Virus record (IMG/VR): IMGVR_UViG_3300025120_000324
Coordinates: 1-30,275 of that record
Length of the DNA: 30,275 bases
Reading direction: 5' to 3' (one strand)
DNA from: a virus
Position numbers and translations under genes: made by a program. The notes under the pieces are model-generated. The model was not told the DNA's origin. It ran no database searches and worked only from the letters and a program-made list of their open reading frames with translations. Shown piece by piece: positions 37-23,726 of this stretch. Each line of letters begins with the position of its first letter. Within the stretch, counting starts at the first letter, position 1.

Positions 37-58
37 AAAACAAAACCCTATGAGTAAA
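37..58 (+). repeat. Direct repeat copy 1, spanning the MazG-fusion start codon
   Basis: This 22-base stretch covers the A-rich leader and first codons of the gene starting at 50. It matches positions 277-298 in 20 of 22 columns (mismatches at columns 1 and 10). The two copies are exactly 240 bases, or 80 codons, apart and are in the same reading frame. They bracket the N-terminal GIY-YIG-like module. Positions 1-49 otherwise hold no gene I can assign; the end of an upstream gene may lie there, with stops in all three frames by position 38. Confidence 0.8.
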
Positions 59-898
59 ACAAAACCAATGTATTACGTTTATCATATACCTAAAGTAAAA
101 GTAGGTATGACAAAAGATCTAGGAGACCGAGTCTTTGAACAACAAGGATATGAGCCGGAAGAAGTTGAATTACTTTTTGTGTCTAGAGATTTAGAATCGG
201 CTTCTGCTAAAGAAATAGAATACCAAAAATTTTACGGCTATTCTGTAGATAGACAAAGCTATAAAGACTTAATGACTAAACAAAAACCTATGAGTAAATT
301 TAAAATTAATGTTACTGAAATGACCACAACCTTTCCATGTTATAATAGGGAGCTAGCAGGCTATCTTATGGACAATAGAGGAAGAGCTATCGAGTTAAAA
401 GATGGCCAAAAGTTTATAGTAAATGACAATTTAATTGATTGGTGTAAAGAAAACGCAAGAACTTCTATGTACAATGCAGATAGATGTTATGTGTACAACA
501 AAGCTTTAGCTAAGGCCATTAAAAAAGATATGCCAGCAAACTTAGCCGAGGCTATGGAAATGCAAGTTAATTATGAATATGTTACTACTGAATGCGGTAA
601 ATGCATATTTCCAGCTATAAGATCTTGGGCTCACGAGCGCGGTTTATATGACAAAGGAGATGTAAAAACACAATATGTTAAGCTGCAAGAAGAAGCTGGA
701 GAAGTTGCAAGGGCAATTATTAAGAATGATATATCTGAGTTAAAAGACGGCATTGGCGATATGGTTGTTGTATTAACTAACCTAGCGCATTTAGCTGGCT
801 TAGAGATTGAAGATTGTATACAAGCAGCCTATGACGTTATAAGTAAACGTAAAGGGTCTATGATTAACGGATCATTTGTAAAGAATGAAACGCTTTAA
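50..898 (+). CDS. GIY-YIG-like domain fused to MazG-type nucleotide pyrophosphohydrolase
   Basis: The C-terminal part (about residues 185-270) has the MazG signature. E214, E215 and E218 form EExxE, followed by E230 and D233 (ExxD) and D237; this metal site hydrolyses nucleoside triphosphates to monophosphates. The N-terminal 80 residues resemble a degenerate GIY-YIG/T5orf172-type module: YYVY at 8-11, KVGMT at 17-21, an R at 27 and a later E/Q-K-GY segment. The middle (81-180) is unrecognised; a CxxC lies at 182-185. An internal ATG (codon 81, position 290) has the same A-rich leader as the annotated start and could give a shorter MazG-only product. The gene lies upstream of nuclease and ribonucleotide reductase genes, so a role in nucleotide-pool management fits. 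MazG is confident; nuclease activity of the N-terminal module is inference. Confidence 0.8.
   Translation: MSKTKPMYYVYHIPKVKVGMTKDLGDRVFEQQGYEPEEVELLFVSRDLESASAKEIEYQKFYGYSVDRQSYKDLMTKQKPMSKFKINVTEMTTTFPCYNRELAGYLMDNRGRAIELKDGQKFIVNDNLIDWCKENARTSMYNADRCYVYNKALAKAIKKDMPANLAEAMEMQVNYEYVTTECGKCIFPAIRSWAHERGLYDKGDVKTQYVKLQEEAGEVARAIIKNDISELKDGIGDMVVVLTNLAHLAGLEIEDCIQAAYDVISKRKGSMINGSFVKNETL
277..298 (+). repeat. Direct repeat copy 2, at internal Met81 of the MazG fusion
   Basis: This is the second copy of the 22-base repeat at 37-58. It contains ATGAGTAAA in frame, preceded by the same A-rich leader. It probably marks the original start of the MazG gene before the GIY-YIG-like module was joined, or the product of a leader duplication. 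Confidence 0.8.
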
Positions 899-1470: not shown

Positions 1471-3333
1471 ATGAACAAATCAAACAGAATATTAAGTGAC
1501 ATAACGGTATTTATGAAATACGCAAAGTATATACCAGAAACAAAGCGTAGAGAAACATGGGATCAGCTTGTGTTTAGAAATGAATCGATGCATATAAAAA
1601 AGTTTCCAAACTTAGAAAAAGAAATAAGATTAGCGTATGAAGATGTGTATAGCAAAAATATATTACCGAGTATGCGAAGCCTGCAATTTGGTGGTAAGCC
1701 TATCGAAATATCTCCTAATAGGATATATAACTGTGCTTATTTACCGGTAGAGTCTGTAGCCGCTTTTAGTGAAACAATGTTTTTGTTATTAGGCGGAACC
1801 GGAGTAGGTTATTCAGTCCAGAAACATCATGTGGCTAAGTTACCATCTGTTACTGTGCCATTTGAAAAACGTACTCGTAGATTCCTGGTAATGGATTCTA
1901 TAGAAGGTTGGGCTGATGCAATTAAAGTATTGATGAAGTCGTACTTAGGCAACAAAAGATCTTCAAGAATTGATTTTGATTATTCAGATATACGCGCTAA
2001 AGGAGCAAGACTTGTGACGTCAGGAGGTAAAGCTCCAGGACCCCAGCCACTTAAAGAGGCTATAGTAAAAATAACAGGGATATTAGATACATTAAAAGAT
2101 GGGGATTATTTAAGCACGGTACAAGCACATGATATTATATGTCACATTGCTGATTCAGTTTTAGCCGGGGGAATAAGAAGAGCAGCTTTAATCTCTTTAT
2201 TCTCATCTGATGATGTTGAAATGATTGGTTGTAAGTCAGGAGATTGGTGGGAACAAAACCCGCAGCGTGGTAGAGCTAATAATTCAGCTGTACTTATGCG
2301 ACAGAAGCTTACTAAGTCTTACTTTATGGATCTTTGGAAACGTATTGAGTTATCCGGGTCTGGTGAACCAGGTTTTTATTTAACTAATGACAAAGATTGG
2401 GGCACTAATCCTTGTTGTGAAATTGCACTTAGACCTTATCAATTTTGTAATTTATGTGAAGTAAATGGATCAGACTTAGATACGCAAGAAGCATTTGACA
2501 GGCGTGTAACTCATGCAGCCTTTATAGGGACGTTACAAGCATCATACACGAGCTTTCATTATCTTAGAGATATATGGAGAACTACAACAGAAAAAGATGC
2601 TTTAATTGGCGTCTCAATCACAGGGATCGGATCTGGCAAAGTCTTAAAATTAGACATGGACAAAGCAGCACTGCTTGTTAAAGCAGAAAATAAACGTGTT
2701 GCAAAATTAATTGGCATTAACCCATCAGCTAGATCAACAACGGTTAAACCGGCAGGGACTACATCATTGACGCTAGGAACGTCATCTGGTATTCACGCTT
2801 GGCATAATGATTATTATGTAAGAAGAATACGTGTAGGTAAGAACGAGTCAATGTACAAGTTCCTTGCTGAAAACCACCCTGAGCTAATTGAAGATGAATA
2901 CTTTAGACCTCATGATACTGCGGTAATATCTATACCTCAGAAAGCTCCGGAAGGATCTATGCTTAGAACAGAACATCCGATTGAACTTCTTGAACGTGTA
3001 AAATTTGTATCTGAGATGTGGGTTAAACCGGGTCATAGAGACGGTAGAAATACACATAATATATCAGCTACTGTATCTATTAAAGAAGATGAATGGGAAT
3101 TGATTGGCGATTGGATGTGGGATAACAAAGAATTTTACAATGGTCTATCTGTGTTACCTTATAACGGAGGTACTTATGTTCAGGCTCCTTTTGAAGATAT
3201 TACAAGAGAGAAGTATTATGAAATGATGGAAACGTTAAAATTAGTTGATATTTCTAGAATTGAAGAAGAGGACGATGAAACCGATCTATCCGGAGAACTT
3301 GCTTGTGCAGGGGGTGCATGTGAGATTACTTAA
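1471..3333 (+). CDS. nrdJ: Adenosylcobalamin-dependent (class II, monomeric) ribonucleotide reductase
   Basis: It reduces ribonucleotides to deoxyribonucleotides for phage DNA synthesis. The key residues of the Lactobacillus leichmannii RTPR type are visible: C88 in the IYNCAYLPV segment; C315 (thiyl radical), E317 and N313 in the NPCCEI motif; C326, exactly 11 residues after C315 as in RTPR (408/419); and a C-terminal CAGGAC pair (C612, C617) that shuttles electrons. The glycine-rich LLLGGTGVGYS segment (105-115) is also typical. No ATP-cone is seen. At 620 residues it is shorter than RTPR (739), with losses spread over all parts. The usual NPCGEI is NPCCEI here. The reaction needs vitamin B12 from the host or environment. 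Start follows the preceding stop without a gap. Confidence 0.93.
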   Translation: MNKSNRILSDITVFMKYAKYIPETKRRETWDQLVFRNESMHIKKFPNLEKEIRLAYEDVYSKNILPSMRSLQFGGKPIEISPNRIYNCAYLPVESVAAFSETMFLLLGGTGVGYSVQKHHVAKLPSVTVPFEKRTRRFLVMDSIEGWADAIKVLMKSYLGNKRSSRIDFDYSDIRAKGARLVTSGGKAPGPQPLKEAIVKITGILDTLKDGDYLSTVQAHDIICHIADSVLAGGIRRAALISLFSSDDVEMIGCKSGDWWEQNPQRGRANNSAVLMRQKLTKSYFMDLWKRIELSGSGEPGFYLTNDKDWGTNPCCEIALRPYQFCNLCEVNGSDLDTQEAFDRRVTHAAFIGTLQASYTSFHYLRDIWRTTTEKDALIGVSITGIGSGKVLKLDMDKAALLVKAENKRVAKLIGINPSARSTTVKPAGTTSLTLGTSSGIHAWHNDYYVRRIRVGKNESMYKFLAENHPELIEDEYFRPHDTAVISIPQKAPEGSMLRTEHPIELLERVKFVSEMWVKPGHRDGRNTHNISATVSIKEDEWELIGDWMWDNKEFYNGLSVLPYNGGTYVQAPFEDITREKYYEMMETLKLVDISRIEEEDDETDLSGELACAGGACEIT

Positions 3334-4675: not shown

Positions 4676-5067
4676 TACTTCTTTGAATTACCCCAGTTAG
4701 CTACACCTACCTTTCTGCATTTTGCCATAGCTCCGCTTCTATACGCTGAGTTGCCTCCTGAATATCTTGCGGCAACCTTTTTATAACAAGCATCCTTTAA
4801 TTTAACGGGGGAATGATCGAATCCTTCTTTCTTTAAAGCTAAGTGCTCTTCGTTTGTGTCAGCCATTACTTCTCCACCAGATTTACCATACATTTTGTGG
4901 GCTTTAAATTTATTAGGAGAACCGCATCCGCAAGCATCTATAGGTCCGCCGCTGCCATCTGCATTCATAGTTACCTCTTGATTCATAGGATAAGAGGCTC
5001 CGCTTCTACTCTCTTTAATTCTAGTTGTTATAGGTTTCATAGTTTTATTGTTTAACGTTCTTTCCAT
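4675..5067 (-). CDS. Small Cys-containing virus protein (CYKKVAARY...SAYRSGA...CRKVG...NWG motif)
   Basis: The C-terminal 40 residues carry a motif I recall from many marine phage and algal virus proteins: a Cys-Tyr start, an SAYRSGA core, a CRKVG step and a terminal NWG. A second pair of cysteines (ACGCGSP) lies in the N-terminal half. Three starts are possible: GTG at 5082, ATG at 5067 and ATG at 5040. 5082 and 5067 overlap the giant gene's end; 5040 lies 11 bases after its stop with an A-rich leader. I chose 5067 without strong preference. Role unknown; the paired cysteines could form disulfides or bind metal. Confidence 0.6.
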   Translation of the reverse strand: MERTLNNKTMKPITTRIKESRSGASYPMNQEVTMNADGSGGPIDACGCGSPNKFKAHKMYGKSGGEVMADTNEEHLALKKEGFDHSPVKLKDACYKKVAARYSGGNSAYRSGAMAKCRKVGVANWGNSKK

Positions 5068-8000
5068 TTTCTTTTTTTCCACTTCATCTTTTCTCCAAAT
5101 TTAGTTTTCTTTTTATCTTTTTCTATCATATTAAGATCCCATTCGCTGAACCCTAGCAATAAAGAAACAGATTGCCAAAATTTAGTTTCTTGAGCAAATG
5201 CTAATCTAACATGGTTTGCTTTACGAACTGCTCTATCTAAAGGTATATTCGCGGTGGCAGAAGCTATTTGACCAATTGCATAATAAGCCGGATTGTCTAA
5301 GCCAAACCCAACCATTTTCTCTCTGGTGTTTTTATAACTAAACGCTCTACCTGCACTTCTACCTTTTCGTATTTTAGAAGATATAGGAGGAGATAAATCT
5401 AAAGCTTTTAATGCTGCTTCTGAATAGTCAGGACGATCTTTTTTAGATTGTTTGTCAATCTCTAACACAATATTTTTGACAGTAGAAGCCACGGCTCCGT
5501 AGATACCTAAACCTCTAAGCATTGAATCTAGCATAGTATTAGCTACCCTAACACCTTTCTTTTTAGTTTCTTCTTCTTCTTCATCATCGAACAACGTTGC
5601 AAACAAAGCTGCTTGTAAACCGCTGAATATAACATTTTGTATGGCTGCATAATAAAGCATCTTAGTAATGTTTTCTTTAGCGCTTCCACGGCCATTCTTA
5701 AGATCTAAGAAAGCTTTTTTAGTTAATCTCATGTATTGCATCGGAGTATTCGCAAAAGCTAATATAATACGTCCTAACGGACTAGCTTGTTGTTGTGATA
5801 CTCTATCAGGTCTAGAGGATTGCTGAGTAGCTTCAGCTATTTCTTGAAAATCTAAAAACGCTTGTTCCTCTGCTGCTAACCTACCCATACCTGGTTTACC
5901 TTCACCTTTTTGCATATAAGTATTAACTCTGTTCCTGTAAAAAGACGCTCCGCCCATTGCAATAGCAAAACTATCCGCTATTTGTGTAGGCAAGAAACCT
6001 GCTTTCAATATAACAGCCAATACCGCTTTAGCTTTATTTGTTTGAGTGGCTGCAGCATTAGCAATTTCATCGGCATTAACATCGTTCTTTAATCCGGTAC
6101 GTCTAGATTTTAAAAAGTCAGAATTGAATAACATTGAGAAGTCACCCCAAAATTGTTTTTGATTACCAAAAGCTTTAGCTGCTAATAACGGATTGTTATC
6201 ACCCCAGTTTATAAAGTTTACAGTTGACAATGTTTGTAGCAACGCTGATCTGGTATTAAAGAACATTATGGTAGCCACAGAATCATTAACCCAATTCATA
6301 AACTTATTAGTTAGCTTATTAGCTCCTACTGGTCTGTTACGACCAGATTTCATTCTATATAAAGAATCTTTTAAAGCCTCTACATAATCTTCTCCAAACG
6401 CAGCTTCTAGTTTATTTAGATTGTCTTCTGAAAATATTATATCTGCGTTTTGTTGCCAAGTTTCTAAAAACTCTTTTCTTTTTATGGTGTTAACCATATT
6501 TATAGCATCAGTTGTAATAGTTCCAGCTAACCAACTTTCTTGAGGGGCAGGGTAGCCGCCCATAGTTTTATTTAGTTGCCTTGCAAATCTTTTTAAGTTA
6601 GGAGAATTTTTAACAATATTTACTAAAGTTTTAATATCAGATTCAGATATTCCTTTTATTTCATGACCGTTTAATTGCCAAAGATATACTCTAACTGCAT
6701 CTTCATATTTAAAATCTGTCTTAGGGTCTCTTTTGCCTAATTCTTTAGGTATATCCTTTAAAGACTTTTTAAGTTGTCTGACAGCATTAGCCACTTGTAA
6801 CTTGTATGTATCAAACTCATTTATCCCTCTAGCAAAAGGATCGAACAATGATTTCTTAAACCACTCTTTTTGTTGTTCACCAAGCTTTCCTTTGCCTAAT
6901 AACTTGTACATTAAACCTTCAAAATCTTCAGCTCCTGGGGGTATAAAGAATTGGAATCGACCTTTCTTACGGCCCATTACCGATGCCTTGTATTTAGATA
7001 TAGTGCCTCTAGCATCAATACCACTTTTCTTTTCAATCATTTGATTGAACGTGCTGTTCATGCTTTTGGAAAATTGCACATTCGCTTGTCTAACCTTGCT
7101 CTTAACGTCTAGTACCTCCAATGCCTTGGCTACCGCTTTAACATTTTGAATGGCGTCGTCTGCAAAATAAAAATCGTTATAACCTTCTGCAGCTTTACCA
7201 ACAATCCAATCAGCTTTAGCTTGAGGTGAGGAGTCAGCTAAGCCAGTAATATTTGCTAAAGGTATGTCTAATCCAATACCTTTTAAAAACTCGTGTATAG
7301 CATTTGCGCTGTTTGCCGGTCTAGCTGTAAGTATGAAAACATTTTTGTTTCCAAACTTTTTATTTCTAGCCATAGCCTTTTCAAAGAAAGGACCCTTGCT
7401 TCCATTAACGACTTTACTAAATTCACTAAAGTCAAAATCAACACCCTCAGCCATTAGTCTATCACCTTCTTTCGCAAACTGTTCAGCATCTAGTTTATTT
7501 TGTTCCTGCACTACTTTCTTGTCAAATACCACAATGTTCTCAGTTTCTCTTCCCTCATTTTTACCTTGGCTAATATTGGTATCTGTAAATCGCGCAGCCT
7601 TTATCCCTTTTCTTTTAAGTGCTACTGCTAATTTTTTAAGATCTTTTTTAGAAAATGATTGTTCAAATCTAGGATCAATAAGTTCATATAAGTTAGATTC
7701 ATCTACCGCATAACCAGCTCTTGGCTTAATGTCTAAGTTGTTAATAACATCAAACACTTGATCCTCTGTTGCAATAGATGCTTCGTCTATCTTAAAACTA
7801 CTAACCTCTCCTTGATTACCCTTAGCGTATGCTGCAGCTTGTTTTTTATCTTCTGAAAAATATACAAATCCGTCAATGTCTTTGACTGATTTTATATCCC
7901 CGCCGTGGAATATTCTAATTTCCCCTGGCATTGTATATAATACATTACTTTTAGTCTTAGCTAATGTGTCGTCAAAATCCCAAACACTTATACCTTTAGG

Positions 8001-11000
8001 TTTAGCATTGATATTATTAGCGTTATTATAAGCGTCTATATTTACTTGAGTTTTAGAAAACATCATTTGCTTCTGAGTTTTCTCTAAAGCTTCTTTAAGA
8101 TCAGATATATATTGTAAATTATAAGAGCTTTTATTATTTAAAAGATCTGATTCCGCTGCATTCTGAAATTTAAAATTTATTCTTTGATAAAAAGTTACAA
8201 ATCCATCCGCGTCTGGCTTGCTATAATACTCCCATTTTGATTGAAGCCGTATTTTAGCGCCAGTATCTGTTAGGCTAGGTAAAAACCCAAAAGGATCCAT
8301 AGTGCTATCGCTTAAAGTAAAAGCTCCAACATCTCCAAAATTAATTATATTGCCTTTTTTAAAATTAGTATAATAATCAGACACTAAACTAATTGGCAAG
8401 TCTTTTAATTTATTATCACCTTTATAAGGAAACCATCCTCCTTTTTTATTTCTATTCTCTCTTAGCCAAGCAGCAGCTTCTTTTGTTATTTTTACTCTTT
8501 CTCTTCCGTTATCTAACTTTTGTGTTTTTACAGCAGAGTCGCCAAATTCTTTACGTAATTTAGATATAATATCTTTTCTTGCTTCAGAGTAAGTGTCAAC
8601 TATTTGACTTGACAGCTTTTTGCCAAAAATTTTATCATATTTTTTATCTAATTCAGTATTTAATTCGCTAGTCTTAAAATGAAGACCGAAACTTCCTAAT
8701 ATAGCATTAACCGACTTTTTCACTTCTAAATAGTAAACATTTCCATCTAAAGAAAATTTATAGTCTATAGTCTGGTTATCCTTATTTATTTCTTTTTGTA
8801 ATATTTTTAAACCTTTAAATCCTTCTCGTTTTAATTTTTTGAATACAGCTACCGTAAAAAGTTCTGATTCCGTCCAGCTAGAGCTATCCACTAGCTTTGC
8901 TCTACGTTCTTTTATTTTTAATAATACAGTTTTGTATTCATTAAAAATTTCTTTATCTTTTATTCTTTTCTTAAGTAATTGTTCGGCTGTTTTAAATGCT
9001 TTATTGGATTCTGTTTTAGTTCTAGAAATACCAACTTGTTTAAAAAGCTTATGTATTGCAGGGTATTTTGTTTTTATATAATCTACTTTTGATTGATCTA
9101 CTTCTGATAGTTGCTTTAAGGTTTTGCTAAATTGCAGATCTCCTTTCCCGGCCCCAACATTCATTTGCTGTTCAGATGTTAAGCCTAAGTCTGTTCTAAT
9201 AACTTCATTCATTATTAGCTTGCCTAAAAGTTTATAAGCAGAAGCTAATATAATACCTGATTTAGCTCTTTGGTAATTTAGTTTATTACCAGATGAATCC
9301 ATTCCAAAAGCTTTATGCACATCACTGTAGCGGATATTATCTTTCAATGTAAAAGGCGTAAGTCCAGCTTTTTTAGTAAATCTTTCTGTTCCTTTATTAT
9401 AAAAGTTTTTCAATATAGACCCGTCTAACTTAGTTGATTTGCCGTAATTAGAATCTTTAACCATAGCTTGGTTCTTACCTTTAGGCATTACTGCTCCTCT
9501 TGGTAAAAGGTTTATAAATAGTTCTATTAATTCTTGATCGTTCTCAGCTAATTTACCTAGAACAATAGAAGCTTCACCGCTGGTGAACATAGTACGACTA
9601 TCTAAAAACTTTTCAGGGTTAACGCCTGGAAACAACTCCTCTAATACTTCATTTAATATCTTAACATCTTTGCCATCTATTTTAATAGTAGCATTAGGAT
9701 CTACGTCTCCAAATTTAAACAAATCAAAATCAATATTATTTTGAAGCGCCCAAGCTCTTAGTTTTTCAGCAAAAGCATTTTTTACTCCGGGGCTTATTAC
9801 TTTCGATGCTTTTACAAGTTTATCTGGTGCAATTTGTTTTTCATCTGCAAAGTTTCTAATAACGCCTGCATCTCCAGCAACACTTTTAGCGTCAGTCACG
9901 TCCTCAGTAAATTCCGCTTCCGTAACCCTACCTGATTTAAGGGCACTACGCATTTTGTTTGAAAGTTGCGAGTTTAAATAACCATACAATGAATCGTTAA
10001 CTTTGGGATTAAACTTAGTAATCATAGGAGCTAAAAAAGCCAAAGTCTCCTGGATCATGTTATCCATTTCAAATTGGGGTAGTGTGGCTAAATTAACAAC
10101 ATTTCCACCAGCAGTTCTGAATGCTTTTGATTTCGACTTAATAATGCCCGATAAAACTTCATATATTTTAGGATTGTTTTTATTATACCCCTTAGGATCA
10201 TTACCTATATCATCTAATATTTTTTTAGACTTAGCAGTTTCTTTTTTTAATGGTGCTGTAGATTTTTTCTTTGTTGTAACCTTAGGTTTTTTCTTTTCTT
10301 TATTAGGTTTTGGAGCTACAACTTTAGGTTTTGGAGCACCAGATATAGCTCTTTCTTCAGCTTCGTCTAAAGCTTTTTCAGCTAGCTCTACATTTCTTTC
10401 CAATGTAGGATTATTTGGATCCGCGGCATAAGCGTCTTCTGCTGCGTCTAATGTGTCTGTTAAATCTAGTATTTCTTGATTAACGGATTTTTGCACAGCC
10501 CCTACTCTACCTATAGTGGCAGCCTTTACTTCAGGGGCATCCGCATTTTCTTTTCTAAGTTCAGCAGTACGTTTCGTTTCCGCGGCTTTAATAGCTTCAA
10601 CGGCTTTTTCACTTACTTGCCCGGTTTCTTTTAAGCTAGTGTTATATTCTTTCAAAAAGTTATATACTTCTCTACCACTATCAAAAGAAACATTATCAAA
10701 CCCTGCTCCTTTAAGCACTCTTAAGACAACATCTTTTAGTTTTTCAAATAGGTTCTTGTCGTAATTGATTTCATTTTTTAGGATTGCATCGGAAAAATAT
10801 GTTAAATATTCTGTATTCCATTTTTCCGCGGGAATTCCACTTTCTTTAAGTTTATTCCTAACAAATCTTCTTTGTTTAGAAGTCATTGCTTTTTTAAACT
10901 CTTTGACTATCTCACCTTGAGCGTTAGCGTCACCAAGAGCTGCATTAAATACGGGATGCAGAATTTCATGTGATGCTGCAGTTATAGCACCCGTCATTTT

Positions 11001-12842
11001 AGCTACAGATTCATCAATAAGCATAACTCCTTCCCCTAAAAATACACCGTCAGAATTTTTAACTAATTCTTTAGCTTCTTCAAATGATATATTTTCATTT
11101 TTAGCAACAGCATTTATATATCCATTTGTAGTTTTGTAAGTTTTAGGTTTTCTTTTATATCCAAAACCTAAATCTTTTGATAACTTAGTAGCTCCTTGCT
11201 TATATTTCTGAAATTCTTTATCTGTAAACTTTTTACCAGCTTCACTAATTAACGCATCATAAGATTCATATTCTCCTATAGATTCTCCAATAGCTTTTTC
11301 CACTAGTGTTCTATTAGCATCTTGTAATCTTTTTATCTCGTTTTCTATTTCAGTATTTGTTTCCCCATCTTTTAATCCAGCGATAGCATCGATGTTCTTA
11401 GCGTAGTCTTGAAGATCTTTTCCTTCTAACTTTTCTAAAACAGCTTTGTTGCCATTTCTTAACATTACTAAATCAGTATAATCTTTCTTTATAAGTTTAT
11501 CTAATGCTTCAGCTCTGGATTTTTTTCCTTCTTTTTCTGCTTGTACTTTTAGGCTATTATTATCAGCTATCTTAGTAATTATTTCTTTTTCTTTTTTTTG
11601 TACTTCTTCAGACTTTAAAAGTTGCTCTGCTCTATTTTTTAATGCTTTATTACCTTGAGCAGCGGTCGCTATAGAAGACATTCCTCCCCCGGTAAAAGCC
11701 CCTATTATACCTTCGTCCATAATACTGTACATATCTCTTACAATATTACTACCAGCATCAGTAGCCCAAGTGTCCTCATCTCCTAGCCAAGCTTCATCAT
11801 TAATTTTAGTGGCTATACTTTGTCCCATTTCAGTAAGCCCTTCTTTTCCTGCAATGCCTAATATATCTAAAGCTTTACGGCTAATACCTTTGTTCATTTG
11901 CTTTACAGCTTTCTCTGCCGTTTTAGCACTGCCTCCTTTTAAAAGCCCTTTACCTCTTAATAGTTTTCGAGAAATAAGAGCATCCACCATTTCAATACCT
12001 CCTGTTGTTATCGCATTTCCTAAAACGCTTCCCAAAGTTTTGTCTGGGTTTTCTCTGTATTCTTCTTCAAATTTATCAACGGATATAGCTGTTCCTAATA
12101 ATGCGGCGGAATATTTATTCATAGACGCTACAGTATAGGGTGCGCTACCAACAGCATCTCTTAATATTCTTCCAGCTATTTGTCCCCAATCAGCATCAGT
12201 TCCTTTTTTTAGCTCTTCTGTTATAGTGTTGTCAAAACGGGTTTGATATTCATCTAAATATTTATCTCCTTTTAATCCGGCTTTTCTTGCTTTGTCAATA
12301 CCAAGAAAATTGTCAGAAAGCTTAGCGATTACTGCTTTTTCCTCAGGAGTGGCTTCTCTTCCTTCGTTAGAAGCCACAACGAATTCCATTAAAGATGTAA
12401 CAGCAGCGTCTGCACCATCAACCATGAGCATGTCATAAGCTAGGTTTTTAGTTGTTTTTACAAAAGCAGGTATGCCTTCTATCGCTATGCTTAATGCCCC
12501 TTTAGCGTCGCCCTCGGCATAAGCCCTCCCTATAGCGTAACCTGTTTTTATTTTTTCGTCTTTTTTTATTTCGCTTTTTTGTAAACCCTTTATAAAATCA
12601 TACCCAAAAGTATTACTTAATTCAGTACCCCGAGAGCTAGTTGTAATTGGATCCATAGTAACCAAAGAACCATCTTCCGATATGGTAGATCTTTCTGATC
12701 CCGCGATTTTTGACTCCACACTTGGATCCACATTCGCAGAGTCGTTTGTCTTTCCCGTATATGATTTTATTACAAGGGCTATATTTTCTTCGCTCTCTCC
12801 AGCAGCTATCATATTTTGTACAATATCATTCAATTCGTCCAT
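5052..12842 (-). CDS. Giant multi-domain internal virion / DNA-ejection protein (polyvalent-type)
   Basis: The 2596-residue product seems to combine several enzymatic modules with a virion region. In order: helical N-terminus; zincin-like segment with H625-E626-x2-H629 and a possible third ligand E678; Lys/Pro-rich linker near 850; a helical stretch around 915-975; a PD-(D/E)XK-like nuclease segment (D1360, E1373, K1375); a HAD phosphatase core (D1622/D1624/T1626, T1839, K1876, D1895/D1896) interrupted by an ART-like domain (about 1640-1778: H1646, Y1672, E1768); and a C-terminal region (about 1925-2596) of the type conserved in marine podovirus internal proteins, with hydrophobic segments near 2420-2500. 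Motifs of the form [LMV][QM]FSK[ST] at 1236, 1593 and 1922 mark domain borders. It is the third of three genes resembling T7 14-15-16. Probably packaged and injected; domain calls are by eye. Confidence 0.75.
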   Translation of the reverse strand: MDELNDIVQNMIAAGESEENIALVIKSYTGKTNDSANVDPSVESKIAGSERSTISEDGSLVTMDPITTSSRGTELSNTFGYDFIKGLQKSEIKKDEKIKTGYAIGRAYAEGDAKGALSIAIEGIPAFVKTTKNLAYDMLMVDGADAAVTSLMEFVVASNEGREATPEEKAVIAKLSDNFLGIDKARKAGLKGDKYLDEYQTRFDNTITEELKKGTDADWGQIAGRILRDAVGSAPYTVASMNKYSAALLGTAISVDKFEEEYRENPDKTLGSVLGNAITTGGIEMVDALISRKLLRGKGLLKGGSAKTAEKAVKQMNKGISRKALDILGIAGKEGLTEMGQSIATKINDEAWLGDEDTWATDAGSNIVRDMYSIMDEGIIGAFTGGGMSSIATAAQGNKALKNRAEQLLKSEEVQKKEKEIITKIADNNSLKVQAEKEGKKSRAEALDKLIKKDYTDLVMLRNGNKAVLEKLEGKDLQDYAKNIDAIAGLKDGETNTEIENEIKRLQDANRTLVEKAIGESIGEYESYDALISEAGKKFTDKEFQKYKQGATKLSKDLGFGYKRKPKTYKTTNGYINAVAKNENISFEEAKELVKNSDGVFLGEGVMLIDESVAKMTGAITAASHEILHPVFNAALGDANAQGEIVKEFKKAMTSKQRRFVRNKLKESGIPAEKWNTEYLTYFSDAILKNEINYDKNLFEKLKDVVLRVLKGAGFDNVSFDSGREVYNFLKEYNTSLKETGQVSEKAVEAIKAAETKRTAELRKENADAPEVKAATIGRVGAVQKSVNQEILDLTDTLDAAEDAYAADPNNPTLERNVELAEKALDEAEERAISGAPKPKVVAPKPNKEKKKPKVTTKKKSTAPLKKETAKSKKILDDIGNDPKGYNKNNPKIYEVLSGIIKSKSKAFRTAGGNVVNLATLPQFEMDNMIQETLAFLAPMITKFNPKVNDSLYGYLNSQLSNKMRSALKSGRVTEAEFTEDVTDAKSVAGDAGVIRNFADEKQIAPDKLVKASKVISPGVKNAFAEKLRAWALQNNIDFDLFKFGDVDPNATIKIDGKDVKILNEVLEELFPGVNPEKFLDSRTMFTSGEASIVLGKLAENDQELIELFINLLPRGAVMPKGKNQAMVKDSNYGKSTKLDGSILKNFYNKGTERFTKKAGLTPFTLKDNIRYSDVHKAFGMDSSGNKLNYQRAKSGIILASAYKLLGKLIMNEVIRTDLGLTSEQQMNVGAGKGDLQFSKTLKQLSEVDQSKVDYIKTKYPAIHKLFKQVGISRTKTESNKAFKTAEQLLKKRIKDKEIFNEYKTVLLKIKERRAKLVDSSSWTESELFTVAVFKKLKREGFKGLKILQKEINKDNQTIDYKFSLDGNVYYLEVKKSVNAILGSFGLHFKTSELNTELDKKYDKIFGKKLSSQIVDTYSEARKDIISKLRKEFGDSAVKTQKLDNGRERVKITKEAAAWLRENRNKKGGWFPYKGDNKLKDLPISLVSDYYTNFKKGNIINFGDVGAFTLSDSTMDPFGFLPSLTDTGAKIRLQSKWEYYSKPDADGFVTFYQRINFKFQNAAESDLLNNKSSYNLQYISDLKEALEKTQKQMMFSKTQVNIDAYNNANNINAKPKGISVWDFDDTLAKTKSNVLYTMPGEIRIFHGGDIKSVKDIDGFVYFSEDKKQAAAYAKGNQGEVSSFKIDEASIATEDQVFDVINNLDIKPRAGYAVDESNLYELIDPRFEQSFSKKDLKKLAVALKRKGIKAARFTDTNISQGKNEGRETENIVVFDKKVVQEQNKLDAEQFAKEGDRLMAEGVDFDFSEFSKVVNGSKGPFFEKAMARNKKFGNKNVFILTARPANSANAIHEFLKGIGLDIPLANITGLADSSPQAKADWIVGKAAEGYNDFYFADDAIQNVKAVAKALEVLDVKSKVRQANVQFSKSMNSTFNQMIEKKSGIDARGTISKYKASVMGRKKGRFQFFIPPGAEDFEGLMYKLLGKGKLGEQQKEWFKKSLFDPFARGINEFDTYKLQVANAVRQLKKSLKDIPKELGKRDPKTDFKYEDAVRVYLWQLNGHEIKGISESDIKTLVNIVKNSPNLKRFARQLNKTMGGYPAPQESWLAGTITTDAINMVNTIKRKEFLETWQQNADIIFSEDNLNKLEAAFGEDYVEALKDSLYRMKSGRNRPVGANKLTNKFMNWVNDSVATIMFFNTRSALLQTLSTVNFINWGDNNPLLAAKAFGNQKQFWGDFSMLFNSDFLKSRRTGLKNDVNADEIANAAATQTNKAKAVLAVILKAGFLPTQIADSFAIAMGGASFYRNRVNTYMQKGEGKPGMGRLAAEEQAFLDFQEIAEATQQSSRPDRVSQQQASPLGRIILAFANTPMQYMRLTKKAFLDLKNGRGSAKENITKMLYYAAIQNVIFSGLQAALFATLFDDEEEEETKKKGVRVANTMLDSMLRGLGIYGAVASTVKNIVLEIDKQSKKDRPDYSEAALKALDLSPPISSKIRKGRSAGRAFSYKNTREKMVGFGLDNPAYYAIGQIASATANIPLDRAVRKANHVRLAFAQETKFWQSVSLLLGFSEWDLNMIEKDKKKTKFGEKMKWKKRKWKER

Positions 12843-16782: not shown

Positions 16783-17979
16783 TTATGGAGTACAATTTGT
16801 AAAGTTAGGTTTTGCTAAGGTCCATTGGTCAGCTAAACGATCAAAATGGGTGCAACTTGTTACATTTGCTACACTCCACCCAGACAAATTTTGGTTAAAA
16901 CTATTTAGAGGATCTTGACCGGCGGGGTCGCGAGCAAACATCGATAACATATTAACCACATTACTAACATTCCATGAGCTTATGTCTTGATTAAAAATAC
17001 GGGTAGCATAAAACATACTTTGCATATTAGTTACACTACTGACGTCCCAAGAGCCAATATCTTGATCAAAAGCTATGGCGTCCTTAAACATTCGCTTCGT
17101 ATTAGTCACGCTGCCTACATTCCAGCCAGAGATGTCCGCGTTAAAAACAGTAGCACGTGTAAATATCTCCTCCATATTGGTTACGCTACCTACATTCCAA
17201 TTAGCTATATCCCCGTTAAAAGCACTAGCATCACTAAACATTCGCTTCATATTAGTTACACTAGAAACGTTCCAGGTAGATAGGGACTGATTAAAAGATT
17301 CTGCCATATAAAACATGTCTTCCATGGTGGTAACACTACTCACGTTCCAATTACCTATCGATTGATCAAAAGACTCCGCATCAAAAAACATACTATGCAT
17401 AGTGGTAACGCTGCTCACATTCCAGCTTCCAATAGGTTGGTTAAAGTTATTAGTTTGAGCGAACGTCCCAAACATGTTAGTTACACTACTAACATTCCAA
17501 TTATTTAAGGGTTGATTAAACGCCGATGCTAAATTGAACGTTTGTTGCATATTAATCACACTGCCCACGTCCCAGTTGGAGATGTCTCCGTTAAAAGCAT
17601 AAGCTTGAAGAAACATACCTTTCATATTCGTTACGCTACTCACATCCCAGCTATTAAGACTCTGGTTAAGACTTTCGGCGGAATTAAACATATATTCCAT
17701 GGTAGTAACGCTGCTTACGTTCCATGAATTTAAAGGCTGATTAAAATTCTCGGCGCCAGCAAACATCCCATACATATCAGTTACACTACTCACATCCCAA
17801 GAACTTATATCTTGATTAAAGGATGGGGTTTGACTAAACATAATCCTCATATCAGTCACACTACTCACATCCCAAGAGCTTAATGGCTGATTAAAATTAT
17901 CAGTTTTTGAGAACATGCTAGCCATATTAGTAACGTTGCTAACATCCCAGGAATCTATGTTTTGATTGAATATCTGCAT
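16783..17979 (-). CDS. DUF285 (BspA-like) leucine-rich-type repeat protein, probable host-contact protein
   Basis: The 398-residue product is built almost entirely of about 15 repeats of 25 residues with consensus FNQ-x-(I/L)-xxW(D/N)VSSVTNMxxMFxxAxx. This is the DUF285/BspA-type solenoid known from bacterial adhesins. It opens in the middle of a repeat, without an N-terminal cap. Repeat 14 carries a 7-residue insertion, and the last is followed by a cap-like end (CTHFDRLADQW...NFTNCTP). The start has an A-rich leader (AAAAAGTAAAAAATG) and no signal peptide. The preceding gene ends with the same repeats, so the two products may pack together. A role in binding a host surface is inferred from repeat type and position. 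Confidence 0.8.
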   Translation of the reverse strand: MQIFNQNIDSWDVSNVTNMASMFSKTDNFNQPLSSWDVSSVTDMRIMFSQTPSFNQDISSWDVSSVTDMYGMFAGAENFNQPLNSWNVSSVTTMEYMFNSAESLNQSLNSWDVSSVTNMKGMFLQAYAFNGDISNWDVGSVINMQQTFNLASAFNQPLNNWNVSSVTNMFGTFAQTNNFNQPIGSWNVSSVTTMHSMFFDAESFDQSIGNWNVSSVTTMEDMFYMAESFNQSLSTWNVSSVTNMKRMFSDASAFNGDIANWNVGSVTNMEEIFTRATVFNADISGWNVGSVTNTKRMFKDAIAFDQDIGSWDVSSVTNMQSMFYATRIFNQDISSWNVSNVVNMLSMFARDPAGQDPLNSFNQNLSGWSVANVTSCTHFDRLADQWTLAKPNFTNCTP

Positions 17980-18225
17980 TTTTTACTTTTTAAAGTTTAT
18001 ATGGGTTGATTAATGCCTCGGAACATGCCGTACATATTAGTAACACTACTCACGTCCCAATAATTCAAAGGTTGATTAAAAGACTGCGCCCCCGCGAACA
18101 TGTCGTACATAGTGGTAACATTACTTACATTCCAATTATTAATATTTTGATTAAAAGTCCTGTTCATATAGAAGCAAGCTCGCATACTAACCACATTACT
18201 CACGTCCCATGCTCCTATATTATTA
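16840..18225. repeat. 75-base coding repeat array (DUF285 units) spanning two genes
   Basis: About 18 diverged units of 75 bases run from the end of the stabilisation-protein gene through the DUF285 gene. They are interrupted only by one stop codon and a 17-base spacer (17980-17996). The conserved part encodes W(D/N)VSSVTNM; the rest varies. Repeats this long and similar are substrates for homologous recombination. Confidence 0.85.
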
Positions 18226-21200
18226 AAATCACTTGGGAATATTCCATTGTTTGGTTCCCATCCTGAAAACAAATAATCTATATTTGCGTTTGTTGCAAAG
18301 CTAGGAATATCTAGCACATCAGAAAAACTCATATTAGTTGCCCCATAATTTTCACTAGATATAGCTCCAAAGCTTAATCTTTCGAATGCCATAGAGAATC
18401 CAAATTGCACTAGCTTAGTATAAAGCGCAGCTATAGAGTTAGATAGATTACCGAATATTATTTTTGATGATCTACCAGATACTTCTATTGTGTAAACACC
18501 CGCTGTTGTATAAGTGTGTGTCCTATTAGCATAAGAGTTGACAGAAGTATTTCCGTCTCCCCAATTAATAATACCTGAGTATGTTCCTGTAGCATCATAA
18601 GGTAGCTCTACACTTGTAGAGGCTGCTGTAGTAGTAACTTCAAAAGTAAGCGGACCGGTGGGATCTGAACATGAAGCAACTATAGTATTATATTGTATAA
18701 TTTCTGTTATAACCCCACTAGAGTTGTATATTATTATATCGTAACTATCTGGAACAGTAGCAAGACTAGCGGGATCTAAGCTAGAGTCGTCCGGCTCACC
18801 TAGGTTACTGGGTACGTAAAGTCCCATTCCAGCAGAAGTTAAAGGCTGATCTGTGTTATAATCATACAATTGAGTACCCACAACTAATCCAGCTGTAGCA
18901 AAATATTTAAACTCAACTCCTGATTTAGCCACATTAGTGTAGTCGCTAAGTGAGGTATAAAAATTTTCTATTATACATTTAGCGGACGGAGCAGTTGTTT
19001 CATTGGCTATTGTAACATCATTATTACCTATAATCTCATCCCAATTAGTCCATAAGAATAAATCTGCGTCTGGGTCTGTAGTAGAACCTGTGTTGCTGCA
19101 GGTAAGATCTATAAACGTAGTTAATAAATAACTTTGAGGGTCGGAGTCTGTTTCTGTAGGATAACCTATACCAAAAGCTTCATCACATACCGCTAGTGCT
19201 TTTATATAGTTAAAGTATTTTCCTTCTTTATTTTCAAACTCTTTTACTTCACCGCCTTCTAAATTTGTTCTTATATAATTTACATACCAGCCTGGATTTT
19301 TTATTCTAAGCGAATTAGGCAGCCACCCACCCGCTGTAGTTTCAGCTATAGAATACCAATCTTCTGTGCCCGTTTTTTTGTATTCTAAAACTCTAGATTT
19401 TGTACCGGTATAATTTAAAGTTGTATAACCTTTTACTAAATTAGGTGATTCGTTTATAAGAACATTAAATGAACTAATGTATTGTTCTCCATAAAATTTG
19501 TTATATATAGGATTTTCATTGTGAGCCCACATCAACCCATTTTTAAAGGTAAAATATCTGTCGTTTAAAGAAACTCCAGATTCAGGAACGAATGATTTTC
19601 TACTAGTCCAACCATCTACGGACTCTTTAAAAGATACAGTGGTACTTATATAATTTTCTTGATCAGGTGGGTTTTGTATATTGTCCTCACAAGCAATAGC
19701 TAAGTTGTCCGCTTGAATAGGATTAAACTTAGTTTGCCAATCGGAAGTAAGATTAACTAGGGTTAAATTGTATAAACCTTTGTCGGCATCGTAAGATCCT
19801 ATTAGTTTATTGTTTGCTTTTAAATTATCCGCAAAGAAATCACCCATTCCTTTACTTGATATTTGTGTTAAGCCGTCTCTTGACAATCTCATAACACTGC
19901 CTCTATTTTTGTCTGTAAAATATAATCTAAAACCATAATCCGCAAAAGATTCCGGGTTTTTAGATATTCCAAACTCTCCCGCATAAGGCGTAGCCTGTCC
20001 TAAAACGTTGTTGTTCGAGGTAACATTGGCATTCCCATCTGCATTGAATAAAGCATCTTTATTAGCTAGCACTCTGAAGCATTTGTCTTCACAAAAAGTT
20101 ATAAGATCGGTGTCTCTAGCGTGCAATTTTTGAATAGTACCATATATAGGATTCAGATCTTTTGTTATAGGCAATGCCTGTATAAATTGATTTAATCTAT
20201 TTATTCCCGATGTAGAATTATATATTTGAGAAAATATATAACCACTACCTCTTCTCTCTTCTCCATAAGGATCTGCCAATATAGATGATACCGTAGCTCC
20301 TTTATCCATCGTAACCGCGTTGTAGTCATCTCTAATTCTATTTGACTCTACCCCATTGCCAAAGCTGAAACAGTTATGCCAATCTAATTCTACCGAGTCA
20401 TTATATCCAGATATAGGCAACGCGTTACTTGCTTGATAATATAAATCTAGATCTACCGCTTCTTTAGGCTCCGTCTCAAATATAGCTGGATTATTAGATG
20501 TAAGTAATCTATTTCCCTGAGGAACAACTGGTTTTACTGCTTGTATTACTATGTCTACAGCATCTGATAAATGTTCTGTGTATGAGGTATTCCCGTTAAA
20601 GCCTGGGGCATGCTGCCAAACTATTGGTCTATCCGTTTTGTATAGAGCTGTGTAAGAGTAATTTCGGTCATTCCCCTCATTACTCAACCCTCTACTATGC
20701 CAAAACCCAAATGCTTCAATTATAATATATATTTCTGACTGTTCTCCGCTTGGCTTGTGTAAAAATCTTACTGCATTTCCTGCTCTTAAAAGGCCGCTGG
20801 GAGCTACCGCTCTAGTTACTCTAGACTGCCCATTAAATGGATCGTCAGGAACAAGAGGTCCAGGAGCCACCCCAGACATAGCGTCTATATACGCAGGAGG
20901 TTGATTATCGGCAGGCCCTTTAAATTTAGCGTAACTATATCCAAAATAATCACTTCCGTTCGTTATAGGGTTAAAATTTTTAAAAAAAGGTTTTTGATCG
21001 GGTGGGTTAAATACACCATAACCCATAGGCCCCCAAGTCGGAGAAGGAGGTCCGTTCTCTATGTTTTCACCAGTCATCCAAACTCCCTTTCCTGCAACAT
21101 AATTATCTCTCCCTCCCCCGTTGTAAGGGTTACCCCAATCAATCCAATAATAACCTTTGCTACCAGAATTAGACCTTCCTCCTATTTCACCTACATATCT

Positions 21201-23726
21201 AGGCCCAGCTTCTGTAAAAGAAATACTTCCAAGTATAGAATACTGTGGATCAAGCGCTTGAAACGATTCGGTTATGTTAGCGTCAAACTCAATGTCCCTG
21301 GGTATTTTTACAAAAAATCTACCCTGATATTCCGGCTTCGTTTCTTCTTTATCTCCTATTACTCTTATAGAATAAGTTCCGCCTACTGATACATTTGTTA
21401 AAAAGTCAGCGTCTGCGCCTATTCCTCGGTCTATAGATAATTCATATATCATATAACCCGCATTACTAGAGGGGCCAACTACCTTGTAATCTTGGACCTC
21501 ATACTCTTCTGAGAAAAAATTACCCAAAGAAAAAACAACTTTATTTCCTGCAAAATTTGGAGCAAATTGGGGATTTGTTTCAGGAGAGGGGCCTTCAAAA
21601 GCAAACCCTAAGCTGCCCATTGCGATGTCAGCGTTACTAGTCACTGTTTCTGTACCTAATGATATACCTACTGTCTTTATAAACTCGGGAGCTTCGTTAG
21701 ATATAGACATAACTCTATACCTGGAAAGAGTTGGCACAGGAACGTCGTTATCGTGCTGTTTTTTGGGTATTAAGTATGACTCCTCCGATATTTTATTTCT
21801 TTCTGATGAAGGAAAAGATAACCACACGTTGCCATCTTCAGCGTCGTAATATCGGTCTAATGCTAAATTGTAGTATTCGTTAGAAGTTTCTTTTAAAAAT
21901 ATCTTATAATGCGTTGCAAAACTAGGAGGGGTATTTGTAGGCTGAACTATAAGCCTATTGAATGAGCTAGAAGAAGCAATGCTTAATTGCGCTCCCGCAT
22001 CTTTATTCGTAAAGACAGGAGTTTCTCTTCCGTATTTGTCTAAATATACCACTCCGGCTTGATAGGTCCTCATTGACTTTACAGAAAATAAAGGAGAACC
22101 AACGTTAGCTATATCGTATTCATTAGAAATAGAACTTAGAATTAAAGTGGTGGTTGGTACATTATAGTTTTGCAAGTAATTTCCATACACTATTCTGTTT
22201 CCAATTATTTCTTGGGCTTGAGCTTTTCTAGGCACATTATCCCAGGGTCTTAATATTTGATTGCCTTCTACTAATGCTCCTATTAATTCTGTTTTTACCT
22301 CAAACTCAGTTATGAGATTTCCGGACGTGTCGTACGATTCGTCTTTAACTAAAGTGTCTACAACGTATACTGCAGAGCTATTCGATTCTTTATAGAGTAT
22401 GTCAATTTCGGAAACGTCTACATGCCCCCAGTTTATGTTTTTTAATGTAAGGGCACGAATATTGTTTATCATACCTATATTATAACCCTCTCTAGATTCA
22501 TAACTAAATTCTGCTGCTAAAAAAGCCACTTCTGAAAAAGGTGAGAATGTAGAATATTCATTATCTATATATTTCCACCTGTAGGCAAATCTAGGGAAAA
22601 CATCTTTAAACATAGCGTCTTCTTCTTCTAATAACGCTTCCCAGGTAAATTCTATTATACCCCCAGTTCCATTTATAAACGTGCCAATATCGGAAGATAT
22701 AGCTTGTATCTCTGCTTTCCAGTTTAAGCCATTAGCGTTTAAATCCTCAACTAATCTAATAGATACTGTATATTCGTAATCTGTGAAATTAACATCTTGA
22801 AAATCTTCAGTTAACATAATAGTGTCTCCTACTTTCCAAGTGTTAGGCTGTAATCCTGTTGTAGCAAAATTTAAAAGCAAATACCCATCCCAGCCATTTA
22901 GGCTAGTGTTATCATAATAATTCGCATCACCTTCTATGTTAGCTTGCCAGTCGTATCTATTTGGCATCGACTGCCTAAGTTCAGGTAAAGTGCTGTCGGG
23001 AGCATAAGTAAAATTTACTCTATTGTCATTACCCCCCGGATTATATACGCCATAAAGTACAGAGCTTGTCCCTGTGCCAAGCTGATCACCTCTTGAACTG
23101 GCTGACATATCTAATGTAAGAGCGGTAAGAGGTGATTTTTTAATAACAGTTACATCTGCTTCATTAAAATCAGGTCTACCCGTTAAATTAGCGCTGTATG
23201 TTTGGCTTGTGCTGTCGTAAGCTGGTATCTTAGTATGTGTTACAAAATTTACCGAACCCCTTTTAAATTTATCAATATTTATTGTTTTCGGCTCAGAATT
23301 GTTATCTGTCCAGAACAATAGATTGTCAATAATATTTATGCCTGTAATTAAATATTGTGTAGAAAAATTTAAGACATTATTAGTGTCTACTATAACCGGC
23401 TTTATTTGCCCGCCTGCAAAGCTGTATTCAGCAATACAATCAGCTTCTGTAGAAGTTATAAACCAATATATTTTATCTGTTTTGTCATCAACAAAGGATC
23501 CTATACATCTTGGGTTAGTTAAAGAATCTATATAATTATTGTTCCATACAGGCTTGCCTCTTAGCTGTTGGTTACCCTTTACGTTCTGCAAAGAACCCAT
23601 GTTACCGTTATCTGAGTTTGCTAAATCTAAGTTTAATGCATCTCGGTATTCACCATTAGGAACAAGTCTTTCGTCAAGATCTTTGTTCATCTTTCCAGAT
23701 TGGAAAACATGTACAAATTCACCCAT
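17997..23726 (-). CDS. P22 gp10/T7 gp12-like stabilisation (nozzle/muzzle) protein with C-terminal PKD and DUF285 domains
   Basis: The N-terminal part (MNKDLDERLVPNGEYRDALN at 13-32, then beta-propeller-like strands with WFIT and LLFWTDN segments) matches the packaged-DNA stabilisation proteins that close the tail of marine and crAss-like podoviruses. At 1909 residues it is several times longer than P22 gp10 (about 470). The extra length is beta-rich. Near 1695-1760 lies a PKD-like domain (INWGDGN at 1720-1726, then THTYTTAGVYTIEV). Residues about 1840-1909 are three DUF285 repeats, the last cut short (RGINQPI, then stop). It overlaps nothing but follows the 301-residue gene by 3 bases. Probably a tail-tip protein combining DNA retention with host contact. 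Confidence 0.75.
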   Translation of the reverse strand: MGEFVHVFQSGKMNKDLDERLVPNGEYRDALNLDLANSDNGNMGSLQNVKGNQQLRGKPVWNNNYIDSLTNPRCIGSFVDDKTDKIYWFITSTEADCIAEYSFAGGQIKPVIVDTNNVLNFSTQYLITGINIIDNLLFWTDNNSEPKTINIDKFKRGSVNFVTHTKIPAYDSTSQTYSANLTGRPDFNEADVTVIKKSPLTALTLDMSASSRGDQLGTGTSSVLYGVYNPGGNDNRVNFTYAPDSTLPELRQSMPNRYDWQANIEGDANYYDNTSLNGWDGYLLLNFATTGLQPNTWKVGDTIMLTEDFQDVNFTDYEYTVSIRLVEDLNANGLNWKAEIQAISSDIGTFINGTGGIIEFTWEALLEEEDAMFKDVFPRFAYRWKYIDNEYSTFSPFSEVAFLAAEFSYESREGYNIGMINNIRALTLKNINWGHVDVSEIDILYKESNSSAVYVVDTLVKDESYDTSGNLITEFEVKTELIGALVEGNQILRPWDNVPRKAQAQEIIGNRIVYGNYLQNYNVPTTTLILSSISNEYDIANVGSPLFSVKSMRTYQAGVVYLDKYGRETPVFTNKDAGAQLSIASSSSFNRLIVQPTNTPPSFATHYKIFLKETSNEYYNLALDRYYDAEDGNVWLSFPSSERNKISEESYLIPKKQHDNDVPVPTLSRYRVMSISNEAPEFIKTVGISLGTETVTSNADIAMGSLGFAFEGPSPETNPQFAPNFAGNKVVFSLGNFFSEEYEVQDYKVVGPSSNAGYMIYELSIDRGIGADADFLTNVSVGGTYSIRVIGDKEETKPEYQGRFFVKIPRDIEFDANITESFQALDPQYSILGSISFTEAGPRYVGEIGGRSNSGSKGYYWIDWGNPYNGGGRDNYVAGKGVWMTGENIENGPPSPTWGPMGYGVFNPPDQKPFFKNFNPITNGSDYFGYSYAKFKGPADNQPPAYIDAMSGVAPGPLVPDDPFNGQSRVTRAVAPSGLLRAGNAVRFLHKPSGEQSEIYIIIEAFGFWHSRGLSNEGNDRNYSYTALYKTDRPIVWQHAPGFNGNTSYTEHLSDAVDIVIQAVKPVVPQGNRLLTSNNPAIFETEPKEAVDLDLYYQASNALPISGYNDSVELDWHNCFSFGNGVESNRIRDDYNAVTMDKGATVSSILADPYGEERRGSGYIFSQIYNSTSGINRLNQFIQALPITKDLNPIYGTIQKLHARDTDLITFCEDKCFRVLANKDALFNADGNANVTSNNNVLGQATPYAGEFGISKNPESFADYGFRLYFTDKNRGSVMRLSRDGLTQISSKGMGDFFADNLKANNKLIGSYDADKGLYNLTLVNLTSDWQTKFNPIQADNLAIACEDNIQNPPDQENYISTTVSFKESVDGWTSRKSFVPESGVSLNDRYFTFKNGLMWAHNENPIYNKFYGEQYISSFNVLINESPNLVKGYTTLNYTGTKSRVLEYKKTGTEDWYSIAETTAGGWLPNSLRIKNPGWYVNYIRTNLEGGEVKEFENKEGKYFNYIKALAVCDEAFGIGYPTETDSDPQSYLLTTFIDLTCSNTGSTTDPDADLFLWTNWDEIIGNNDVTIANETTAPSAKCIIENFYTSLSDYTNVAKSGVEFKYFATAGLVVGTQLYDYNTDQPLTSAGMGLYVPSNLGEPDDSSLDPASLATVPDSYDIIIYNSSGVITEIIQYNTIVASCSDPTGPLTFEVTTTAASTSVELPYDATGTYSGIINWGDGNTSVNSYANRTHTYTTAGVYTIEVSGRSSKIIFGNLSNSIAALYTKLVQFGFSMAFERLSFGAISSENYGATNMSFSDVLDIPSFATNANIDYLFSGWEPNNGIFPSDFNNIGAWDVSNVVSMRACFYMNRTFNQNINNWNVSNVTTMYDMFAGAQSFNQPLNYWDVSSVTNMYGMFRGINQPI

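Follow-up and report, generated by a model that had tools for sequence, protein, structure and literature searches.

The gene at positions 50-898 of this viral DNA is, judged from its sequence, an old fusion in which a T5orf172-type GIY-YIG module is joined to a middle domain and a MazG pyrophosphohydrolase. We propose, with a probability of about 0.7, that it is also a gene within a gene, which would yield a 282-aa nuclease-MazG protein and, from an internal ATG encoding Met81, a 202-aa MazG-only protein whose likely role is to set the subunit ratio of mixed oligomers. The window, by which we mean the whole 30,275-nt stretch analysed (IMGVR_UViG_3300025120_000324), opens with the following features.

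1-38, + strand: 3' end of thyA (thymidylate synthase), encoding LPAISAPLSVGK and ending in the stop codon TAA at 36-38; read by comparison with the relative L001
37-58, + strand: repeat copy 1 (end of the thyA stop codon, spacer, fusion codons 1-3)
50-898, + strand: full-length fusion ORF, 282 aa (GIY-YIG module, linker, middle domain, MazG)
50-265, + strand: GIY-YIG module of the T5orf172/MUG113 kind, residues 1-72, assigned from Pfam scores of relatives, invariant residues and predicted fold
266-289, + strand: variable, Lys/Asn-rich linker, predicted to be disordered; also the A-rich leader of the proposed internal start
277-298, + strand: repeat copy 2, encoding K-Q-K-P-M-S-K
290-292, + strand: Met81, the proposed internal start codon
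290-898, + strand: proposed short product, 202 aa (middle domain and MazG), suggested by the conserved start
302-529, + strand: family-specific middle domain, residues about 85-160, starting KINVTExTTTFP
608-895, + strand: MazG nucleotide pyrophosphohydrolase domain, residues 187-282, with EExGE and DxxGD motifs (Pfam MazG, E 3.4e-8, over the cut-off)
885-1334, + strand: DUF1064/phage endonuclease-like gene, sharing 14 nt with the end of the fusion
1471-3333, + strand: ribonucleotide reductase gene

The fusion gene thus sits within a nucleotide-metabolism cluster, with thyA upstream and ribonucleotide reductase downstream. In L001, the complete thyA gene matches Pfam Thymidylat_synt (E 6.8e-81), and its end reads as it does in the window. 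A small gene carrying LQEELxDAxxYxEKA lies upstream of thyA in L001 (1957-2169) and immediately 3' of the fusion in other clades (L008, L010, L239); it resembles a second small pyrophosphohydrolase and has no Pfam match. Elsewhere in the window, a single 2,596-aa ORF (5052-12842, - strand) is very large for a 30-kb stretch and is possibly a polyvalent internal protein. At 16783-17979 and 17997-23726 (- strand), a 1909-aa ORF ends in NQPLNxWDVSSVTNMxxMF-type repeats and its neighbor opens with the same repeats directly after it; the pair resembles a single repeat protein interrupted by a frameshift or stop.

An old fusion of a GIY-YIG module to MazG

Scans of viral contigs gathered several hundred related loci, and one scan across bacterial genomes returned 12 more, in metagenome bins assigned to Bacteroidetes, Saprospiraceae, Flavobacteriaceae, Flaviramulus and a few other groups. 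From all of these together we obtained 270 distinct fusion ORFs (127 clusters at 80% identity, 66 at 70%; minimum pairwise identity 45%), every one of which carries the module, the middle domain and MazG in a single frame. The bins, together with A-rich gene starts, suggest that the hosts of these marine phages are probably Bacteroidota.

The first-pass annotation had likened the N-terminal module to GIY-YIG nucleases, and comparison with relatives bears this out. The module of the window falls below its Pfam cut-off (16.7 bits versus 22.3), whereas aligned relatives pass for both T5orf172 (32.3 bits versus 20) and MUG113 (28.4 versus 22.3), and 29-30 of 35 modules match at E <= 0.1. Residues Y11, K17, G19, T21, R27, E55, Q59, Y64, D67 and Y71 are invariant. 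R27 and E55, constant across the 35 modules, are presumably the catalytic Arg and Glu expected of the GIY-YIG superfamily, and their invariance suggests an active nuclease. Modeled alone, the module is predicted to fold as beta-beta-alpha-beta-alpha (pLDDT 87). Foldseek found no clear match to this model in the PDB, and a profile of the module found no credible match among PDB sequences. Via a second-look alignment of the predicted fold, I-TevI came first, with a modest Z of 5.5 (rmsd 3.0 over 66 residues); Slx1 and UPF0213 stood further down the same list.

A search for the module outside the fusion, as the first-pass annotation had advised, found stand-alone 80-aa copies near a terminase-like gene in another group of viral contigs (L086-L089 and L224-L233; e.g. 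L087:3001-3243). In several of these contigs, where it was read, the module stop overlaps the next start (ATGA). Among the isolated phages searched, neither the module nor the middle domain found a match.

By profile and by residue, the C-terminal part is a member of the MazG nucleotide pyrophosphohydrolase family. Pfam MazG (PF03819) scores 32.8 bits with the full protein and 34.1 bits with the C-terminal part, against a cut-off of 22; the acidic residues E214, E215, E218, D233 and D237 are invariant in 69 sequences; and PDB MazG folds lead the Foldseek list for the whole-protein model. That model predicts disorder in linker residues 76-82 (pLDDT < 50) and in a second stretch, residues 165-181, between the middle domain and MazG. 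The MazG domain belongs to the same families as other phage MazG enzymes, including MazG-like PHROGs 1992, 715 and 1994 and the cyanophage MazG, which hydrolyses dGTP and dCTP but not (p)ppGpp (PMC6850273). Unlike the fusion, the MazG proteins of the isolated phages searched lack the N-terminal module and the middle domain. A combination of GIY-YIG with MazG was not described in the literature searched, as judged by title and abstract. Vibrio phages 1.176.O and 1.134.O were considered as carriers of a split module and MazG and were rejected, as the upstream ORF is unrelated and the tblastn alignment crossed a stop. A frameshift downstream of the middle domain seemingly disrupts the fusion gene in L362; this could be a real pseudogene or an assembly error.

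The fusion does not look like a recent event. It had been proposed that a mobile module was added to MazG, and recent insertion finds no support in the relatives. Tree distances of the module and the C-terminal part correlate at r = 0.45 (mirrortree), beyond all of 2,000 permutations (maximum 0.30), and the two parts therefore share a history. Relatives with the middle domain and no module were not seen, except where a contig ends; MazG genes without the module exist, and these also lack the middle domain. The presence and absence at one site in close relatives that marks a homing endonuclease or other mobile module was not found.

No stand-alone gene beginning at the position equivalent to Met81 was found among the relatives, all 270 of which are full-length fusions. 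The first-pass annotation had held that such a result would count against two products. We argue that internal initiation is still compatible with this result, and that the conserved and movable ATG described below speaks for it.

A movable ATG is kept at the domain joint

Of the 270 distinct fusion ORFs, 268 have an ATG at the joint, 7-13 residues ahead of a conserved T-x-T-F anchor. The spacing between Met and anchor is 8 residues in 214 ORFs, 9 in 26, 7 in 10, 10 in 8, 11 in 7, 12 in 2 and 13 in 1, and the tree of the C-terminal part implies no fewer than five changes in it. The surrounding linker is Lys/Asn-rich and varies among relatives in both length and sequence, and Met accounts for 24 of 2,042 linker residues outside the junction position. 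The joint reads MKINVTEQTTTF in most relatives, MSKFKINVTEMTTTF in the window, MSKKINVTDQTTTF in L113 and MIKKTNHTVTF in L309. The Met is kept even where the KINVTE motif of the middle domain is lost (MNKYSSSDATTTF in L218, MLPRATEATTTF in L354). A fold residue would be expected to keep its place, and a Met that moves yet is kept thus suggests a start codon rather than a fold residue.

Alternatively, the Met may be kept for the protein itself, to which it would contribute a hydrophobic residue at the strand that opens the middle domain, with the Lys/Asn linker as a flexible tether and a single protein as the only product. In the 214 relatives with a spacing of 8, the Met adjoins the folded region, where some side-chain role is possible, and in the window clade its usual place is taken by a hydrophobic F. 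We consider this explanation rather unlikely. Clades with F (the window clade) or K (L113) at the usual position still carry a Met in the linker, 2-5 residues further upstream; in other Met columns Leu, Ile or Gln comes to replace the Met, whereas the junction Met stays; and in the window protein Met81 falls within the predicted disordered residues 76-82, where the model gives no sign of a structural need for Met. In addition, two relatives dispense with both the Met and a Lys/Asn linker, and internal Mets in equally Lys/Asn-rich surroundings do not score as starts (see below).

These two relatives, L377 and L390, are the only ones of 270 to lack the junction Met, and no GTG or TTG alternative start was found at the joint of either. 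The L377 linker, QVTRPKQPYAGDKPN, is not A-rich, nor is that of L390, and KQPYAGDKPN is common to both. Loss of the Met together with the Lys/Asn linker shows that the fusion can exist without either, and is expected if both serve initiation. L377 and L390 look like one lineage, a small sample of n = 2. Synonymous-site constraint at the joint is only weakly raised, and we do not count it as support for internal initiation.

The joint resembles a translation start

A start-site matrix was built from 768 other gene starts of related loci and 5,057 internal Met codons. Median scores are 3.44 for true starts, 3.10 for junction ATGs and -3.23 for other internal Mets. In the window, the ATG at 290 scores 3.07, above 97.9% of internal Mets, and the first start, at 50, scores 3.40. 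The A-richness of the joint partly follows from its Lys/Asn-rich coding content. When internal Mets were matched for this property (three Lys/Asn in the preceding seven residues), junction ATGs scored 2.77 versus 0.11 for control Mets.

Upstream of junction ATGs, A occupies position -3 in 80% of cases and position -6 in 86%, and 1% have T at -3. Both positions, and these preferences, agree with measurements in Flavobacterium johnsoniae, in which initiation is raised by low structure and by A at -3, -6, -12 and -13, and U is unfavourable at -3 (PMC6847099). Mean folding energy over the 50 nt around the junction ATG is -0.76 kcal/mol, versus -5.37 kcal/mol at other in-frame Mets of the same genes. 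The joint therefore combines a conserved start codon with a start-like context, as would a gene within a gene. The idea of the first-pass annotation that Met81 may still serve as a start, giving two proteins, gains strong support from this context and from the conservation of the ATG in 268 of 270 relatives.

The 22-bp repeat is younger than the fusion

The joint first drew attention through an in-frame 22-base repeat, which direct comparison confirms. Positions 37-58 (AAAACAAAACCCTATGAGTAAA) and 277-298 (TAAACAAAAACCTATGAGTAAA) are identical at 20 of 22 positions, and the ATGs at 50 and 290, both in the open frame 50-898, are spaced by exactly 240 nt, or 80 codons. Copy 1 takes in the last bases of the thyA stop codon and the 12-nt spacer that separates thyA from the fusion. 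Positions 55-70 hold another partial copy, which reads TAAAACAAAACC and then ATG. Among all 22-mer pairs of the window at distances of 10-400, seven reach 20/22; six are within the repetitive protein gene at 17,084-17,854, and the other is the pair at 37-58 and 277-298. No 20/22 pair appeared in 20 dinucleotide shuffles of the window, and the base composition makes a chance match unlikely. We considered whether the repeat could be explained wholly by a generic start motif. The motif ATGAGTAAA occurs at 1 of 768 gene starts and at 0 of 5,057 internal Met codons in related loci; the match is therefore not that of a common start motif, and we rejected this explanation.

The repeat had been read as a gene-start duplication that records the addition of the module, and this part of the earlier interpretation did not hold. 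At the same place, a 20/22 match occurs only in the window and in L005; other close relatives match at 17 (L001, L006), 16 (L002, L004) or 15 (L003) of 22 positions. Over 167 genes the mean match is 10.7, about the same level as the 10.3 of mismatched pairs. The window is closer in identity to L001 (85%) than to L005 (74%); nevertheless, the short linker form is common to the window and L005, and the remaining relatives have extra linker residues in comparison (KPKTMNKF, KPKPMSEF). Because the 20/22 match is restricted to these two viruses, we regard the repeat as a local and unstable likeness and not as a mark of the fusion. The fusion is present in all 270 relatives, at identities down to about 45%, which rules out the repeat as a fusion scar and makes the fusion the older of the two. 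We take the repeat to be a by-product of an unusual likeness, in this virus, between two A-rich start regions. The likeness of the two starts in the window and L005 may reflect short AAAACC slippage together with a shared start preference, or a local copy event.

The ATG itself could still be a relic, namely the start of an old MazG gene that a mobile GIY-YIG module joined, perhaps via the 22-bp repeat, and that simply persists. Fusion through loss of a stop would leave a start codon at the domain border, the module is found alone elsewhere, and the window does contain the repeat. However, an unneeded ATG in so variable a linker would not survive in 268 of 270 relatives at divergence down to 45% identity, the repeat is missing outside two viruses, and the module and C-terminal domains share their history. 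We therefore judge a persisting relic to be highly improbable.

Probably two proteins from one gene

The reading that we prefer is the production of two proteins from one gene. Initiation at 50 would yield the 282-aa nuclease-MazG protein. Initiation at 290, within an A-rich, unstructured stretch whose codons also specify the disordered linker, would yield the 202-aa MazG-only protein. MazG enzymes function as oligomers, and for this reason we infer that the short form may supply an excess of MazG subunits and form mixed oligomers with few nuclease arms. This oligomer model, like the nuclease activity assigned to the module, draws on general knowledge of MazG and GIY-YIG enzymes. The ratio of subunits could set the balance of nucleotide hydrolysis versus DNA cleavage during infection, by analogy with gp4A and gp4B of phage T7. 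The joint task might be turnover of DNA and dNTPs to feed phage synthesis, which is a guess from the dGTP and dCTP hydrolysis of the cyanophage enzyme.

Gene 4 of T7 has an internal in-frame start that gives a second product without the N-terminal domain, and gp4A and gp4B oligomerise together. Gene 4 (primase-helicase) is likewise a replication-related phage gene, and its layout, with a start inside the frame, resembles the one that we propose. The two differ in that their domains are unrelated, that the internal start of the fusion is a proposed one, and that translation of the fusion in its host likely proceeds without a Shine-Dalgarno sequence. The 56-kDa form of gene 4 is referenced in PMC9198812. 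Type I-D CRISPR systems offer another case: the large and small complex subunits Cas10d and Cas11d come from one gene by internal initiation (PMC10327210). Unlike the fusion, Cas10d/Cas11d has no nucleotide-metabolism or GIY-YIG part.

A similar arrangement is known for RpnL/RpnS, in which a protein with an N-terminal nuclease has its C-terminal part translated separately from an internal start (PMC10327210). By analogy, the short product of the fusion might bind the full-length protein and restrain its nuclease, as RpnS does with RpnL. The shared layout of an N-terminal nuclease, an in-frame internal start and a C-terminal oligomerising product would fit this variant of the gene-within-gene arrangement (PMC10327210), as would the active nuclease that invariant R27 and E55 suggest. 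The differences are considerable. RpnL/RpnS is a bacterial defence gene and the fusion a phage gene; the RpnL nuclease is of the PD-(D/E)XK type, and RpnS is a small variable helical domain, whereas the fusion scores as a GIY-YIG module joined to MazG. Its short product would be a conserved enzyme with catalytic residues, and for this reason an inhibitor role like that of RpnS is less likely than a ratio-setting role like that of T7; on its own we rate it as decidedly unlikely.

Odn (Gp88) of phage ICP1 joins a T5orf172/MUG113-type GIY-YIG domain to a RepA_N DNA-binding domain (PMC8263062). Like the fusion, it belongs to the same domain superfamily, has the conserved Arg and Glu, and is fused to another phage domain. 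Unlike the fusion, it has the nuclease at its C-terminal end, RepA_N as its partner and no MazG.

Because annotation allots a single protein to each frame, genes within genes are likely to be under-counted. The present case was found by sequence alone: at a disordered joint between domains, an ATG changes position and is almost never lost, in phages whose likely hosts initiate by A-rich context rather than by Shine-Dalgarno pairing. L377 and L390, in which the start is lost, provide a natural comparison lineage. One could envision, though we think it unlikely, that this widespread family of uncultured marine phages has a nuclease that is set or restrained by a MazG translated inside the same gene, which would link the clearing of nucleotide pools to DNA cleavage. 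If true, phages would have, in this fusion, their own counterpart of intragenic nuclease-inhibitor genes, one built on an enzyme.
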